64,000 nucleotides of DNA, taken from the NCBI RefSeq assembly GCF_002706375.1, contig NZ_CP017706.1, positions 620,001-684,000 of the forward strand, given 5' to 3'. Below are positions 10,897-15,533 of the stretch, in pieces. A program made the position numbers and the translations under genes. The notes under the pieces were generated by a model. It searched no databases and was not told the origin of the DNA. It saw only the letters and a list, made by a program, of their open reading frames with translations. How positions within the stretch are numbered: position 1 is the first letter of the stretch; each line of letters begins with the position of its first letter. This DNA comes from Lactobacillus amylovorus DSM 20531. Lineage in GTDB: Bacteria; Bacillota; Bacilli; Lactobacillales; Lactobacillaceae.

Positions 10897-11709
10897 ATGA
10901 ATATGAAACTTGGAGAATATCTAAGAGAAGAACGAAAGAAATTAGGATTAACGCAACAAGACTTTGTACAAAATATTATTTCCGTTTCTCAATATTCTAG
11001 AGTGGAAAACGGTGAACAAGATTTTAAAGTATCAGATTTTGTTAAACTAATATCCATTAATAATTTAGATATAAATCAATTGATTCAAACTTTTCAAAAT
11101 AATACACAAATAAAACAAACTGTATTAGAAACTTTAGCTCAAGCCTTTTACGATAGAGATTTAACGAAGGTCAAAAAAATAAAAGACTATTTAAAACAAA
11201 GTAGCCTTGATAATTCATTATTGCTTAGAACAGAATTGATTATTTTGACTTTAGAAAATAAAGATATTTCGCATAATAAAAATCTTGAAAGACAATTTTC
11301 AGAAGAATTAAACAAGTTTGACGATTGGACAAATGACAAAGTATTTCTTCAATTATTCGGAAGTTCAATGTTAATTTTCGATATGGATAGATTAAACATT
11401 TATATGAACAAGATTTTGAGTGAGTATACCAACAAAATTTACTCCCTTTCATTTGAAGATCAAAGAAGAATTGCAGGTATTTGTATAAACTATTTAAATC
11501 GTTGTTATTCAGAGAAGAATTTAGTCTTGGTTAATAAATCTATTAATCTTTTAAATAAATTAGCACGAAACCCGGATCTATTAATGTATAGGTTGCTAGG
11601 AAAATACTTTAAATATTTGTTTAATAATGAAAATGTAAAAAAAGATCAAATATTAGATCTTCTAAAAGATGCAGGATACGAAAAATTTACTATAAATCTT
11701 GCCAAGTAA
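10897..11709 (+). CDS. Rgg-like transcriptional regulator of the peptide island
   Basis: The 270-residue protein has an N-terminal XRE-type helix-turn-helix (LGEYLREERKKLGLTQQDF through YSRVENGEQDF, about residues 4-43). The all-helical C-terminal part resembles the TPR-like peptide-binding domain of Rgg/GadR/MutR regulators. Several ATGs are close together; AAGGAGG at 10883-10889 is 7 nt before the ATG at 10897, so I chose that one over 10891. Rgg proteins often sense a short hydrophobic peptide encoded next door and activate a neighbouring operon. Such a peptide follows immediately at 11795. The gene is AT-rich, like the rest of the island and unlike fabT. Confidence 0.85.
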   Translation: MNMKLGEYLREERKKLGLTQQDFVQNIISVSQYSRVENGEQDFKVSDFVKLISINNLDINQLIQTFQNNTQIKQTVLETLAQAFYDRDLTKVKKIKDYLKQSSLDNSLLLRTELIILTLENKDISHNKNLERQFSEELNKFDDWTNDKVFLQLFGSSMLIFDMDRLNIYMNKILSEYTNKIYSLSFEDQRRIAGICINYLNRCYSEKNLVLVNKSINLLNKLARNPDLLMYRLLGKYFKYLFNNENVKKDQILDLLKDAGYEKFTINLAK

Positions 11710-11718
11710 TAAAATTTG

Positions 11719-11763
11719 CAAATTTACAAATTTCAAATTTATTTATTATTTACGTTTTATAAT
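11719..11763 (+). promoter_or_regulatory. Activator-type promoter with three CAAATTT repeats
   Basis: A perfect TATAAT lies at 11758-11763 without a recognisable -35 box. Where the -35 box should be there are three CAAATTT copies at 11719, 11727 and 11734. A good -10, no -35 and iterons directly upstream is what an activator-dependent promoter looks like; Rgg is the obvious candidate. The promoter would drive the short peptide and the operon behind it. Confidence 0.5.
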
Positions 11764-11794
11764 CAGTTTATCTTCTAAAGAAAGGAGAATGGTT

Positions 11795-11830
11795 ATGGTT
11801 ATCGTTGTATTACCAGTTTTAAGTAATTAA
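11795..11830 (+). CDS. Short hydrophobic peptide, candidate Rgg pheromone or leader peptide
   Basis: Tiny reading frame encoding MVIVVLPVLSN (11 residues). An in-frame ATG at 11789 would give MVMVIVVLPVLSN, but the strong Shine-Dalgarno AAAGGAG (11781-11787) is 7 nt from the 11795 ATG and only 1 nt from the other. The gene sits between an Rgg regulator and its likely target operon, the usual place of SHP pheromones. It is shorter than typical streptococcal SHP precursors (about 20 or more residues) and has no charged N terminus, so it could instead be a regulatory leader peptide. Function is inferred from position and hydrophobicity. Confidence 0.55.
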   Translation: MVIVVLPVLSN

Positions 11831-11915
11831 AAAATACCTAAAATTCAATTCATTAAAGCATTGACTAGGTACTCAAGTTAAGAAAAATAATGTTATATAT
11901 TAAAGGAGTATTTAT

Positions 11916-12041
11916 ATGAATAACAACTGTCAAGTATTAAACCCAGATGCTAAATTAGATTTCGAAATTTTGGATCAACTTAAAGAAGCTGGTCACGAAT
12001 TACTTTCTGGTCCAAAACAAAGTTGTAATAATAATTGTTAA
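11916..12041 (+). CDS. Candidate RiPP precursor peptide ending in CNNNC
   Basis: 41-residue peptide with an excellent ribosome-binding site (AAAGGAG at 11903-11909). An acidic, helical, leader-like part (KLDFEILDQLKEAGHELLSG, residues 13-32) is followed by a short tail PKQSCNNNC (residues 33-41) with two cysteines and three asparagines. The N terminus reads MNNNCQ, so N-N-N-C occurs at both ends. The ELLSG boundary resembles leader ends of other modified peptides. It is directly followed by a terminator and then by genes for a carrier protein, an adenylating enzyme and an acyltransferase, which supports a ribosomally made, modified peptide. I know of no described family with this core; cleavage site and modification are unknown. 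Confidence 0.7.
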   Translation: MNNNCQVLNPDAKLDFEILDQLKEAGHELLSGPKQSCNNNC

Positions 12042-12071
12042 TTAAAGAAGGGCTTCGGCCCTTTTTTAATT
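12042..12071 (+). terminator. Hairpin terminator/attenuator between precursor and enzyme genes
   Basis: AAGGGC-TTCG-GCCCTT hairpin followed by T6, with extra A/T pairing outside, starting right after the precursor stop. Placed between precursor and biosynthetic genes, it should give many precursor transcripts and few read-through transcripts, a common arrangement in RiPP operons. Confidence 0.85.
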
Positions 12072-12094
12072 AACAAAACATAGGAGTACTGCTA

Positions 12095-12358
12095 ATGGAT
12101 AAAAAGGAAATAAAAGAAAAAATACTTTTAATTATCAAGAATTATTTAGAAGATAACGGAATTGATGCTCAAGATTTAAATGAAAAATCTAACCTTATGA
12201 AAGATTACGAATTAGACTCTTTAGATTATCTAGAACTATTTGATAATTTAGAAGAAAAACTTGATATTCAAGTTTCTGATAATATGAAAGACTATGATGC
12301 TTTATTATCAGTAGAACAATTAATACAATATGTAATTTCAAACAAAACAAATGTATAG
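12095..12358 (+). CDS. Dedicated acyl carrier protein of the peptide island
   Basis: 87-residue acidic protein with the carrier-protein motif E-L-D-S-L-D-Y-L-E-L-F; Ser42 is the expected phosphopantetheine site. It differs from AcpP of the fatty-acid operon (81 residues, D-A-D-S-L-D-L), so it is not a recent copy. A ribosome-binding site (AGGAG) precedes the ATG. Its end overlaps the start of the adenylating-enzyme gene by 8 nt. With the acyltransferase two genes on, it suggests that an acyl group, or an activated peptide or amino acid, is held as a thioester during biosynthesis. Confidence 0.88.
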   Translation: MDKKEIKEKILLIIKNYLEDNGIDAQDLNEKSNLMKDYELDSLDYLELFDNLEEKLDIQVSDNMKDYDALLSVEQLIQYVISNKTNV

Positions 12359-13409
12359 AATTAAAAAGACTGTTAAATTATTTCAGAATAAAAACAAAAT
12401 TAAGATAATCTTTATGAATACTCATAAAGAAATAAATATTAAATGCACTGAGGTATGTCGCTTTATTTTAAATTTACTTACTTCTGGTATAACAAAATCT
12501 AATTTAATTAATCGAATTAAAAATAACTATCCTCGGGTATCCGACAAAGAAATACAAGACTTTTTTTACTTCTTAATTGAATCTCAAGTGATTGAAAAAG
12601 TTAGAAAAAATAAATATGAAAATTCTATTGTAAGCAGACAAGTCATTTTTTATTCAGATATTGTATCTAACTCAGAAGCTATGCAAGATAAATTAAGTAA
12701 TAAGACGATTTTAATTTTAGGCTTAGGTGGTGTAGGTAGTTGTATTTCATATTTCTTAGCTCAAGCAGGAATAACTCATTTCATACTTGTAGATTCTGAT
12801 ATAGTTGAAAATACTAACCTAGGTAGACAGGCTCTATATTTTAAAGATGACATTGGAAAATATAAAGTTGATGCAATATCCAATAAACTCAAAAAAATAA
12901 ATCCTAATATAGTTGTTGAAAAGCATGTATTTACTATACACAGTAAAAATGATTTTACGAAAATAAATCAAATTCCAGATATTGTAGTTAATTGTCTTGA
13001 TGAACCCAATAGTTATTTTACTGGAAAATGGGTAACTAATTACTACCTCAGTTTAGGTGTACCCATGATAAATGGAATTGGTTACAGAGGAAGAACTATA
13101 AGTTTAGGTCTCACTACGATTCCAGGGAAAACTATTTGCTGGAATTGCGCTAATTTATCATACGGTAGTGAAATCAAAAATTACGTGCCTGTTTTAAATC
13201 ATGATTCACAAGCAGGTGTTACAAGCACTCTGGCTAATTTCATTGCTTCTATTCATGCTCAAGAAGTTATAAATGTTTTATGCAAAGAATTGAATCCTAT
13301 TTTAACTAATAAGATAGGAATAATTGATTTTCTTACTTTAAAAATCAAGTGGATTACGTTGACAATTAATAAAAAAGATTATTGTCCTATTTGTAAAAAG
13401 GGAAACTAA
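12351..13409 (+). CDS. E1/ThiF-like adenylating enzyme, MccB-like, with N-terminal recognition-like domain
   Basis: 352 residues. Residues 1-85 form a small alpha/beta-looking domain in the place of the peptide-recognition (PqqD-like) domain of MccB. Residues 117-352 are a ThiF/MoeB-type domain: GLGGVGS nucleotide loop (124-130), VDSD (147-150), and Asn156, Arg159, Lys172 and Asp217 at the positions of the ATP-handling residues of MoeB-like enzymes. A structural zinc site is formed by C263-x-x-C266 and C345-x-x-C348. Family members adenylate a C-terminal carboxylate; MccB does so on the microcin C peptide. The likely substrate is the 41-residue peptide. No YcaO, lanthionine synthetase or radical SAM gene accompanies it. 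There is no clear ribosome-binding site, so translation is probably coupled to the ACP gene. Confidence 0.85.
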   Translation: MYRIKKTVKLFQNKNKIKIIFMNTHKEINIKCTEVCRFILNLLTSGITKSNLINRIKNNYPRVSDKEIQDFFYFLIESQVIEKVRKNKYENSIVSRQVIFYSDIVSNSEAMQDKLSNKTILILGLGGVGSCISYFLAQAGITHFILVDSDIVENTNLGRQALYFKDDIGKYKVDAISNKLKKINPNIVVEKHVFTIHSKNDFTKINQIPDIVVNCLDEPNSYFTGKWVTNYYLSLGVPMINGIGYRGRTISLGLTTIPGKTICWNCANLSYGSEIKNYVPVLNHDSQAGVTSTLANFIASIHAQEVINVLCKELNPILTNKIGIIDFLTLKIKWITLTINKKDYCPICKKGN

Positions 13410-13412
13410 TAT

Positions 13413-14360
13413 ATGATTAAACAAGCTTTTATTTTCGATTCCTTAATTAAAGATTATAAATTTTATCAAGGTTTATTAAAAGAATATACTGACTATGACA
13501 AACAATTACAGGTTTTCAAAAAAATCAGAGAAGAATCTGTAAATCAAGAAATAGTCAAGAACATACAACTGTATAAAAAACTAATTGATAATATTCTTTT
13601 AACGAATATCAATTCAAGTTCAGAAAGGAAAATTGAAATTATTGAGAAATATTTTACAAGAGATTTTTATAATACTCCTGTATACTATGGCTTTCACCTA
13701 TTTCATTTTTATTCTCCAGATTTTATAAAAGATAATGTCGAAATTATTAATGAAAAAGTCTATTTAGATTCTATAAAAAAATACGGTGCAGTTGTACTTA
13801 ATCCTTTACATAATGATTTATATCAAATATTAACGAATTACATTTCCTTAATAAATAAAAATATAATTTGTTCTTTATATGGATTAGAAACATCTTTAAA
13901 AAAGATAGAAAAAATCAATAAGTTATACACTCCTACTGTTAAGAACATTGAGTATAATTATATAGTTGACAATTACGGTGTTCCATATCCGTTAATATTA
14001 AGAAAAGCATTAAAAGATATTAGCCAAGGCAAAGTGGTAGCAATCCCACCAGAAATTTCAATGGGCTTAGGACCACAACATACTGTAAAATTATTAGGTA
14101 AGGATGTCTCAATGCCATTAGGTAGTTCATGGGTAAGCAACAAAATGCAGGTTCCAATTATAATATTACATACTGAAATGACAGAAAAATATAAAATTAA
14201 GATCACTTTTGAAGATCCGATTTATCCATCTGAAATTCAAAATCGACAAAATATTATTGATGAATCTACACATGTATTTAAAAAAATAGATAAAATCATC
14301 AGAAACAATCCATATTCTTGGTGTGGATATGATACTTTCGACAAAATGATGATAAAGTAA
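13413..14360 (+). CDS. LpxL/HtrB-like acyltransferase of the peptide island
   Basis: 315 residues. The region from about residue 125 to the end resembles bacterial lysophospholipid/lipid A acyltransferases of the LpxL type: GAVVLNPLHNDLYQIL (125-140) in the place of the catalytic-histidine motif, GKVVAIPPEISMGLG (206-220), and KLLGKDVSMPLGSSW (226-240), then the ending NPYSWCGYDTF. The usual H-x4-D/E motif is altered: His133 is followed at +5 by Gln138, with Asp135 at +2. LpxL enzymes take acyl-ACP as donor and the island has its own ACP, so N- or S-acylation of the peptide is plausible. Lactobacilli have no lipid A. Family assignment is from motif reading; the substrate is inferred. Confidence 0.65.
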   Translation: MIKQAFIFDSLIKDYKFYQGLLKEYTDYDKQLQVFKKIREESVNQEIVKNIQLYKKLIDNILLTNINSSSERKIEIIEKYFTRDFYNTPVYYGFHLFHFYSPDFIKDNVEIINEKVYLDSIKKYGAVVLNPLHNDLYQILTNYISLINKNIICSLYGLETSLKKIEKINKLYTPTVKNIEYNYIVDNYGVPYPLILRKALKDISQGKVVAIPPEISMGLGPQHTVKLLGKDVSMPLGSSWVSNKMQVPIIILHTEMTEKYKIKITFEDPIYPSEIQNRQNIIDESTHVFKKIDKIIRNNPYSWCGYDTFDKMMIK

Positions 14361-14366
14361 AAGCCT

Positions 14367-15533
14367 ATGTTAAACAAAAAATCCTATTTTATCTCACGTG
14401 CCGTTGGCGGCATAGCCAATTCACTTTTCAGCATGGTCTTCATCTGGTGGCTACAAACATCCACCAAAAGTTCCTTTGTTGTGGGAATCGCCGAAGCCAT
14501 CTTTTCCACCACAGCTGCCCTTTCCATCTTTTATGGTCCAATTATCGATCGCTATTCATTTAAGAAAACTAGCTATTACTCAATGCTCGTACAAACAGTT
14601 TTCTTATTTGCCACAACCGCTGCAGTTTATCAGTTCAGTAAAAGTTACATTTTAGCGTTAATTTGCGCAGGTGTAGTCTCCATCTGTGATGAATTCTTTA
14701 ATCCAGCGGATCGAGCAATTTTAAAGGAAACGGTAGCTGATGAGCAAGAGTTAAATAATCTAATCTCAAAAGTTAGCAGTATCGATCAGTTCGTAAACAT
14801 TGCTGGAACAGTATTTTCAGGTCTTTTATTAACCTGGTTGATTTCCGCCAATGTAATGTTAATTTGTAGTTTGCTAAGTTTAATCAGTCTTGTATTTTTG
14901 TTCTATGCTTTAAAAGAAGTTAAAAACAGAGTACCACAAGAGGCAAAGCCCAAATACTATAAGCAAATTTTTAGTGGCTATAAGTTTATCAAAAATAACC
15001 AATTTCTAAATCATTATTTTTGGTCTTCAATCCTGTACTCATTTGTAACGCCAGCAATGACAATCTTATTGCCACGAATCGCCCAAAGAAGCGGTAAAGC
15101 CAGCTTCTATAGTATGTTCTACATCTGCTTCATGCTTGGTTTTATCATCGGTGCAACTATTGCAGGTAAATTAACTGTACGAATAAAAACTATTGGTTTT
15201 ACCTGGCTAAGTAGTGCTATTCCCTTAATTTCGATGATCTTCTTCAGTAATAGTTGGCTCATCTTCATGGGACTGATTTTTCTATTTGGTTTGATGACAA
15301 GCATTCATAATATTTTAGCTGAGTCAATGATTCAAATTACCTCAAATGACGAAGTACTTGGACGTGTTTTAACCACTATTCGCACTAGTACCTCTATTGG
15401 TGGACCGATTAGTTCAATTGCAGCTGGTATTTTGCTTGATAATTCTGACGAAACAGTTTTGATCTTGGCCTGCGGATTCATCATTCTTGTTAGTGGATTT
15501 AATATTTTCAGAGCAATTGGTAAAACAGCATAA
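14367..15533 (+). CDS. MFS transporter, possible peptide exporter
   Basis: 388 residues with about 12 membrane segments, of the macrolide-efflux (MefA/MFS_3) type. It starts with RAVGGIANSLFSMVFIWWLQ and has a YGPIIDRYSFKK loop between segments 2 and 3. It begins 7 nt after the acyltransferase stop and shares its terminator, so it is probably co-transcribed and could export the modified peptide. Its base composition is visibly less AT-rich than the preceding genes and it has only a weak ribosome-binding site. It may therefore be an older chromosomal gene next to which the island inserted. Confidence 0.8.
   Translation: MLNKKSYFISRAVGGIANSLFSMVFIWWLQTSTKSSFVVGIAEAIFSTTAALSIFYGPIIDRYSFKKTSYYSMLVQTVFLFATTAAVYQFSKSYILALICAGVVSICDEFFNPADRAILKETVADEQELNNLISKVSSIDQFVNIAGTVFSGLLLTWLISANVMLICSLLSLISLVFLFYALKEVKNRVPQEAKPKYYKQIFSGYKFIKNNQFLNHYFWSSILYSFVTPAMTILLPRIAQRSGKASFYSMFYICFMLGFIIGATIAGKLTVRIKTIGFTWLSSAIPLISMIFFSNSWLIFMGLIFLFGLMTSIHNILAESMIQITSNDEVLGRVLTTIRTSTSIGGPISSIAAGILLDNSDETVLILACGFIILVSGFNIFRAIGKTA

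Follow-up and report, generated by a model that had tools for sequence, protein, structure and literature searches.

A rare E1–acyltransferase–peptide unit in Lactobacillus amylovorus and distant bacteria: a possible fatty-acylating branch of the RRE-ThiF RiPPs

We analyzed a 64,000-nucleotide stretch (the window) of the genome of Lactobacillus amylovorus DSM 20531 (contig NZ_CP017706.1, positions 620,001 to 684,000), in which an island of genes encodes a 41-residue peptide with a cysteine-ended tail, an MccB-type E1 (ThiF) enzyme, and an LpxM/PatA-like acyltransferase (AT). E1, AT, and a Cys-ended peptide form a recurring unit that is rare and occurs in distant bacteria. The island is almost certainly a cluster for a ribosomally synthesized and post-translationally modified peptide (RiPP), and the 41-residue peptide is very likely its precursor. 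On balance, we lean towards placing the cluster among the RRE-ThiF (MccB-like) RiPPs, as a rare branch whose product receives a fatty acid.

Recurrence of the unit and its precursor peptides

E1 and AT were found together in seven loci: that of the window and those of Siminovitchia thermophila (L005), Rothia halotolerans (L006), Leifsonia sp. TF02-11 (L009), an L. plantarum plasmid (L022), and two genomes of the window's order (L075 in G640 and L094 in G1030). In one comparison of AT loci, every match scoring 100 bits or more lay in a locus that also held an E1, and none of the weaker matches did. L009, L075, and L094, where E1 likewise stands beside the AT, did not contribute to the profiles that first revealed the partner gene. 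The gene order AT, ABC ATPase, permease, E1 was common to L006 and L009, which represent two actinobacterial families (the ABC genes were recognized by eye), while E1 and MFS genes divergent from the AT were common to L022, L075, and L094. An exporter, MFS or ABC, was present in all seven loci, several being recognized by eye; MFS genes lay beside E1 in L022 (annotated), L094 (tblastn, 4e-10), and L075 (by eye).

A search for conserved Cys-rich short open reading frames (ORFs) beside E1 and AT in other genomes, proposed in the initial annotation, was positive: an ORF with a Shine–Dalgarno sequence and Cys at the last or second-last position was located upstream of E1 or AT in 7/7 loci. These candidate precursors span 19–41 residues. 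The tail is SCNNNC in the window, CFCVACT in L005, and CGSQCMCS in L009 (from a GTG start); L006 has two copies, ending in CNNRCMCT and CTQDRCMCT. Two copies ending in NGSC were found in L022, and single peptides ending in MGSC and TGSC in L075 and L094, respectively; these form one 19-residue family, MKK(V/I)xEVK...GSC, in which one L022 copy begins with MEK. Tandem pairs of Cys-ended ORFs occur in Rothia and in L. plantarum. Both peptides of the L. plantarum plasmid are missing from its gene table, which is incomplete by design.

The 41-residue peptide had four homologues, the SCNNNC end being kept in P0130–P0132 and the C-terminal end being different in P0133; P0132 and the AT homologue P0001 sit on equally long contigs (230433). 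The earlier view of a RiPP-type cluster with a 41-residue precursor is backed by these three tails together with the Cys-ended ORFs of the six further loci. Neither loci without a conserved precursor nor a peptide-free housekeeping trio emerged, because the unit of E1, AT, and Cys-ended peptide recurs in 7/7 loci. Cys5 of the peptide was rejected as a conserved residue, as it is Ser in P0130–P0133.

Under the same length and Shine–Dalgarno rule, a Cys-ended ORF was found in one of the 22 RRE-E1 loci without an AT (L028), where it lies in another frame, overlying a better candidate that ends in EPSGR. The difference between 7/7 and 1/22 gives a Fisher p of 5.1e-6, the loci being related to each other. 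The chance that a random 600-nt strand segment holds a Cys-ended ORF is 0.056. Candidate tails in loci without an AT were of other kinds: WWIVV, WWIVI, NWFFI, and NWYFI, as well as the Arg-ended GGR, GSR, GKR, and SGR.

Among the latter loci, Arg-ended short candidate precursors upstream of E1 were observed in Lactobacillaceae (L028, L033, L036, L037, and L039; EPSGR twice, VGGR, NGGR, VGSR, and WGKR) and possibly constitute a separate tail class. Other Lactobacillaceae loci (L030, L032, L049, and L050) carry, beside RRE-E1, precursors resembling those of enterofaecin (WWIVV/WWIVI) and Ind (NWFFI/NWYFI), L049 having two.

Behind the precursor, a strong hairpin was found in the window, in L022 (-30 kcal/mol), and in L005 (-31 kcal/mol), no shuffle being as good; a comparable hairpin was not found behind the precursors of L075 and L094 in the fold test. 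The terminator scan placed the hairpin of the window on the minus strand only, and the plus-strand hairpin rests on the fold computation. As attenuators after the precursor gene, such hairpins fit an excess of precursor.

Distribution and E1 phylogeny

Nine AT homologues were found at E 1e-3 or better in a protein search reaching only relatives with shared short exact words, and a single-protein search gave an additional weak match in G029 (E 6e-4). In the search of the class Bacilli, the AT profile matched in 25 of the 398 genomes, with more than 100 bits only in the window's own genome and in G640. The 24 matches outside the own genome comprised 17 with wide flanks (E1 only in G640) and five narrow loci without E1, G552 and G708 being left out. 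The AT was present in 2/295 genomes of the family of G640 and in 0/11 and 0/23 genomes of two further Bacilli families, samples too small to say much.

A plasmid search with the AT yielded two L. plantarum plasmids only, and none with the Leifsonia or Bacillus AT as a query. No relative was confirmed when viral contigs were scanned with alignments of the AT and of E1.

On the E1 tree, the enzymes linked to an AT fell into a Lactobacillus group, a group of Siminovitchia, L. plantarum, and the order-level relatives (support 81/86), and an actinobacterial pair; together they do not form a single supported clade. Linkage in the metagenome pairs P0003/P0012, P0004/P0014, P0005/P0016, and P0006/P0019 was deduced solely from longest contigs of equal length, and on this basis P0012, P0014, and P0016 were labelled as AT-linked in the tree. 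P0011, P0013, P0015, P0017, and P0020 carry no label for AT linkage, which does not equal absence of the AT.

E1 enzyme

E1 is a full-length MccB-type enzyme that matches MccB end to end, and MccB was its closest solved structure by both sequence and fold. The extra N-terminal domain noticed in the initial annotation proved to be the leader-binding RRE domain (residues 1 to ~85); it precedes an adenylation domain (~95–350) with a CxxC...CxxC pattern. D148, D150, R159, K172, D217, C263, C266, C345, and C348 were invariant across 13 sequences, and C348 drops off this list in a wider set of 18. We take these residues to have the nucleotide- and zinc-type roles of the ThiF family.

A second ThiF-type gene in the same genome (G000:C1:1124278-1124733, model positions 88–247) is likely a housekeeping one. 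A tandem ThiF/E1 pair was observed on plasmid pXBB1-8 of Acinetobacter johnsonii (L004, 2589–7184), with a 66-residue Cys-rich peptide before it, an ABC-type gene after it, and brxL (BREX) further upstream. In L. plantarum pLL441-2 (L023, 4992–7024), E1 is reduced to its C-terminal part near an IS256 transposase and is annotated as a TOMM leader-binding protein; the same short E1 match occurs in four plasmid records.

Acyltransferase

The AT resembles LpxM and PatA in fold along nearly its full length, and precomputed PF03279 (Lip_A_acyltrans) matches were present on six of nine homologues. H133 (codon 13809–13811) is invariant across the E1–AT loci, and the block-3 acid E214 (14052–14054) is nearly so, being Asp in L075 and L094. 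The acid of the HX4D/E motif is lost in all seven loci, which have HX4Q, HX4M, or HX4Y (Gln in the window). The earlier description of the enzyme as LpxL-like holds for the LpxM/PatA fold, catalytic His, and block-3 acid, and fails for the HX4D/E acid; the Pfam score stays just below the cut-off. A PDB sequence search with a second AT profile (A7) was weaker than with the first, finding PatA alone at 0.006 and no LpxM.

The catalytic relay of PatA is H126-E200, in which the Asp of HX4D is not a partner; the HX4D/E acid touches Arg164 of the proposed acceptor site (PMC4792965). The pattern of H133 and E214 agrees with this relay, since His and the block-3 acid are kept.

In G058, an in-frame AT remnant without its middle lies immediately before an MFS gene whose product is 68% identical to that of the window (L111, 8033–9389), which supports an AT–MFS link in Lactobacillus.

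Proposed pathway and rival explanations

At high cell density, the Rgg-like regulator and the hydrophobic peptide would turn the operon on. The leader of the 41-residue peptide would bind the RRE domain, as is known for the family, and it is highly probable that E1 acts on this peptide. Using ATP, E1 would adenylate the C-terminal carboxylate, and the activated end may then be caught by a carrier thiol or by a nucleophile of the tail, for example Cys37 attacking the carboxylate of Cys41 to give a five-residue thiolactone; a thiolactone ring in the product is, however, doubtful. The AT probably fatty-acylates the product, as suggested by its fold and by its association with Cys tails. It would shift a fatty acyl group from an acyl carrier protein (ACP), here a dedicated one, to the tail, most likely to a cysteine, and placement on Cys is put forward only tentatively. 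By family knowledge, the MFS protein would export the product.

Several points weigh against a fatty-acylating branch. An AT match at E 1e-4 is missing in 396 of 397 Lactobacillaceae genomes, the sole carrier being the window's own. The AT-linked enzymes cluster on the E1 tree (6 label changes, with 0/500 shuffles as low) and represent about three lineages; because the seven loci are related, Cys tails could track the E1 lineage and not the AT. Counted as about three lineages, Cys tails occur in 3/3 loci with an AT vs 1/22 without (p 0.002), and they occur in 5/7 vs 1/22 (p 0.001) when the region upstream of E1 alone is counted. Loci with an AT were scored on two upstream regions (of E1 and of AT) and those without on that of E1 only; most of the latter were covered with 1.5 kb flanks, and 3/22 gave zero ORFs under the Cys-tail rule, itself fixed post hoc, once the first precursors were known.

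The peptides add to these points. The tail Cys is at position -1 or -2, only one Cys is present in each GSC peptide, and the precursors of L006 and L009 are located upstream of AT, several kb away from E1. A Cys end alone is no proof of acylation, because GRC precursors end in Cys and the GRC clusters described in the available parts of PMC12250964, which make a Cys thiolactone, have no such AT. A private ACP, a part of the pathway in the initial annotation, was found in the window alone: the other six loci gave only chance-like matches of 14–36 residues (tblastn with E up to 1; E 0.18–0.92). Furthermore, no protease families were detected among the eight neighbouring proteins scanned.

The strongest alternative, which we consider unlikely, is that E1 alone makes the active product, a C-terminal thiolactone, imide, or amide like those of GrcB, EnfB, and IndF, and that the AT provides self-protection by remodelling membrane lipids or by an intracellular acylation that silences the product. 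Lactobacillaceae often carry RRE-E1 loci in which no AT was detected, so E1 products need no acylation; the Cys thiolactone of GRC arises without an AT (PMC12250964), a C37–C41 thiolactone of five residues is possible in the tail of the window, and lipids are the substrates of LpxM and PatA (PMC4792965). However, the AT tracks the Cys tail (7/7 vs 1/22, or 5/7 in the region upstream of E1 alone), which is hard to explain by a general lipid-modifying immunity enzyme, and the acid that contacts Arg164 at the proposed acceptor site of PatA is replaced by Q, M, or Y in all the AT loci.

It is improbable that E1 instead transfers the peptide, by its C terminus, onto the private ACP at the phosphopantetheine thiol and that the AT takes this peptidyl-ACP as a donor, moving the peptide onto a lipid or another acceptor. 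The 8-base overlap of the ACP and E1 genes, with the AT directly behind, would suit this route, as would the C-terminal thioesters that MccB makes with thiols (PMC13255007) and the use of acyl thioesters as donors by AT-fold enzymes. Against it, a dedicated ACP was not found in 6/7 loci, and the PatA/LpxM fold seems better suited to a fatty acyl than to a peptide donor. We give similarly little credence to a broader form, a RiPP made with the logic of fatty acid synthase, where E1 would load the peptide as a thioester on the private ACP and the AT would use the carrier-bound peptide, an acyl chain, or both to form a peptide–lipid conjugate.

A relative of microcin C, with E1 making a peptide–nucleotide Trojan horse and the other genes tailoring it, is very improbable: MccB is indeed the closest solved structure, but the tails have Cys or Cys-Thr/Ser as their last residues, whereas MccA ends in Asn (PMC12150305), and no family suggesting MccE or MccF was found among the eight neighbours scanned. 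A housekeeping sulfur or lipid pathway with the 41-residue ORF arising by chance can hardly be the case, for although thiamine and molybdopterin synthesis use ThiF-type E1s and the ACP and AT are lipid-type genes, the RRE domain is present, the AT is rare and patchy, the precursor homologues are conserved, and Cys-ended ORFs occur in 7/7 E1–AT loci.

Relation to known systems

RRE-ThiF enzymes adenylate a C terminus, after which varied nucleophiles lead to a phosphoramidate, a bicycle, a Glu-Cys thiolactone, an imide, or an indolylamide (PMC12250964, PMC12150305); with thiols, MccB can also form a thioester at the C terminus of a tagged protein (PMC13255007). The fusion of RRE and ThiF, the short conserved precursor gene, and the exporter are shared with the RRE-ThiF (TLAT) RiPPs of MccB, PaaA, GrcB, EnfB, and IndF. 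The LpxL/PatA-like AT and the ACP distinguish the present cluster from microcin C, pantocin A, GRC, enterofaecin, and Ind, for which the available parts of the sources describe neither.

Precursor tails of RRE-ThiF RiPPs end in Asn in MccA, WWIVI in EnfA, and NWYFI in IndA, and in Cys in GrcA, as here. Unlike MccA, whose terminal Asn is modified by MccB (PMC12150305), the precursors here terminate in Cys or Cys-Thr/Ser in all seven loci, and SCNNNC of the window differs from the WWIVI/NWYFI-type ends of enterofaecin and Ind. GRC of Streptococcus pneumoniae (GrcB) is similar in its RRE-ThiF enzyme, C-terminal Cys (in a 39-residue precursor), and quorum-sensing neighbourhood. It differs in its Glu-x3-Cys end, since the last Glu of our precursor is residue 28 of 41, 13 before the end; moreover, no radical SAM family was found among the eight neighbouring proteins scanned, while an LpxL-like AT and an ACP are present. 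A Glu-Cys thiolactone of the GRC type was dropped as a general rule, as Glu is not conserved in the tails, nor is its position constant in the GSC precursors. In Macrococcoides caseolyticum, a GRC-like cluster includes an additional N-acetyltransferase (PMC12250964).

With LpxM, LpxL, and PatA, the AT of the window shares the fold of nearly the whole chain, the catalytic His, and the block-3 acid; it differs in the replaced HX4D/E acid and in belonging to a peptide cluster of Gram-positive bacteria, not to lipid A or phosphatidylinositol mannoside synthesis. A fatty-acylated RiPP would be the outcome common to selidamides, lipolanthines, and nostolysamides. Nostolysamides are lanthipeptides acylated on Lys, and neither ThiF nor LpxL-type enzymes were met in the available descriptions of these three groups.

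ThiF genes of streptococci often adjoin Rgg/SHP systems (PMC12445099, PMC13361665), and in S. thermophilus radical SAM or ThiF genes occur in 11/21 rgg regions (PMC12445099). The quorum-linked frame of E1 RiPPs is thus known already (PMC12250964, PMC12150305, PMC12445099), which narrows the earlier claim of an undescribed RiPP class to the AT branch with Cys tails, apparently undescribed. No description of an E1 RiPP with an LpxL/PatA-like AT and Cys tails was found in a literature search whose scope did not include PMC11256085 (on mining lactic acid bacteria for ThiF) or the supplement of PMC12150305. A text search for the word "acyltransferase" gave zero occurrences in PMC12250964, PMC13361665, PMC12445099, and PMC12710340.

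Organization of the locus

The genes and elements named in the initial annotation were found where it had placed them, on a single strand (Table 1).

Table 1. Features of the E1–AT island, with positions counted from the first nucleotide of the window.
Feature	Position	Strand	Evidence
Regulator gene (helix-turn-helix, HTH), weakly Rgg-like, probable peptide-responsive activator	10891/10897-11709	+	Pfam HTH_3 2.8e-7; PDB 4yv6 E 0.0012
Hydrophobic ORF, 13 residues (11 from 11795), candidate SHP-like pheromone	11789/11795-11830	+	Sequence reading; Shine–Dalgarno present
Precursor peptide (very likely), 41 residues, C-terminal tail KQSCNNNC	11916-12041	+	Homologues P0130-P0132; Cys-ended ORFs in six other E1–AT loci
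Hairpin with T run; terminator/attenuator separating the precursor from the enzyme genes	12036-12075	+	-24 kcal/mol, z -9.1
Dedicated ACP, DSL phosphopantetheine site	12095-12358	+	PF00550 1.2e-6; DSL motif by eye
RRE-ThiF (MccB-type E1) enzyme	12351-13409	+	ThiF PF00899 1.2e-41
LpxM/PatA-like AT	13413-14360	+	Fold; Lip_A_acyltrans 21.9 bits vs cut-off 22.3
MFS exporter, probable product export/immunity	14367-15533	+	PF07690 (MFS_1) 1.8e-28

The G+C content is 24–28% at ~10.9–14.3 kb and mostly 36–43% farther out on both sides; this drop suggests that the first part of the island was imported. The MFS gene may be a separate host-like addition, since its G+C content is ~35%. The Rfam scan gave no matches above the gathering score.

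The best PDB chain for the regulator, 4yv6, which we take to be an Rgg, was matched over residues 1–102 only, the N-terminal third. Regulators of the Rgg type join an HTH domain to C-terminal peptide-binding repeats. The protein of the window resembles them only weakly, with an HTH_3 domain and this match, and there were zero Rgg-named matches in Pfam and NCBIfam. Homologues of the regulator were found by tblastn beside 4 of 17 RRE-E1 loci without an AT (L029, weakly, L036, L040, and L044) and beside 0/4 of the other AT loci covered (L005, L022, L075, and L094). Upstream of an E1 without an AT, a hydrophobic ORF beginning MVMVMVISSGLSN was observed (L035, 939–1001), resembling MVMVIVVLPVLSN of the window.

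For the ACP, TIGR00517 matched at 5.3e-10 with a score of 39 bits, the cut-off being 70.45. On the left, the island is flanked by a divergent gene resembling fabT (140.5 bits with the FabT model, below the cut-off of 200) and by an apparent fatty-acid operon. The initial annotation had attached meaning to this adjacency. In tblastn searches with the genes of the window, which covered L005, L022, L075, and L094 and left out L006 and L009, no fatty-acid genes were found beside E1 and AT, and the operon was dropped as a general partner. Nor was the MFS gene found in a fixed position beside fabT among the relatives viewed. In G026, an MFS homologue is adjoined by a membrane protein and a small secreted-looking peptide with a Gly/Trp/His-rich tail (L106, 430–1966), possibly another bacteriocin-type locus.

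Implications

Clusters with look-alike peptides occur in distant bacteria, and this therefore seems to be a real, little-known route to lipid-tagged peptides. If true, it joins two enzyme families not linked in the literature searched, the E1 (ThiF) activators of C termini and the lipid-A-type ATs, and an AT with an altered acceptor side may act on cysteine. The finding highlights a group of tiny ORFs that end in Cys, and for lactic acid bacteria it would offer a route to ribosomal lipopeptides that can be tested.

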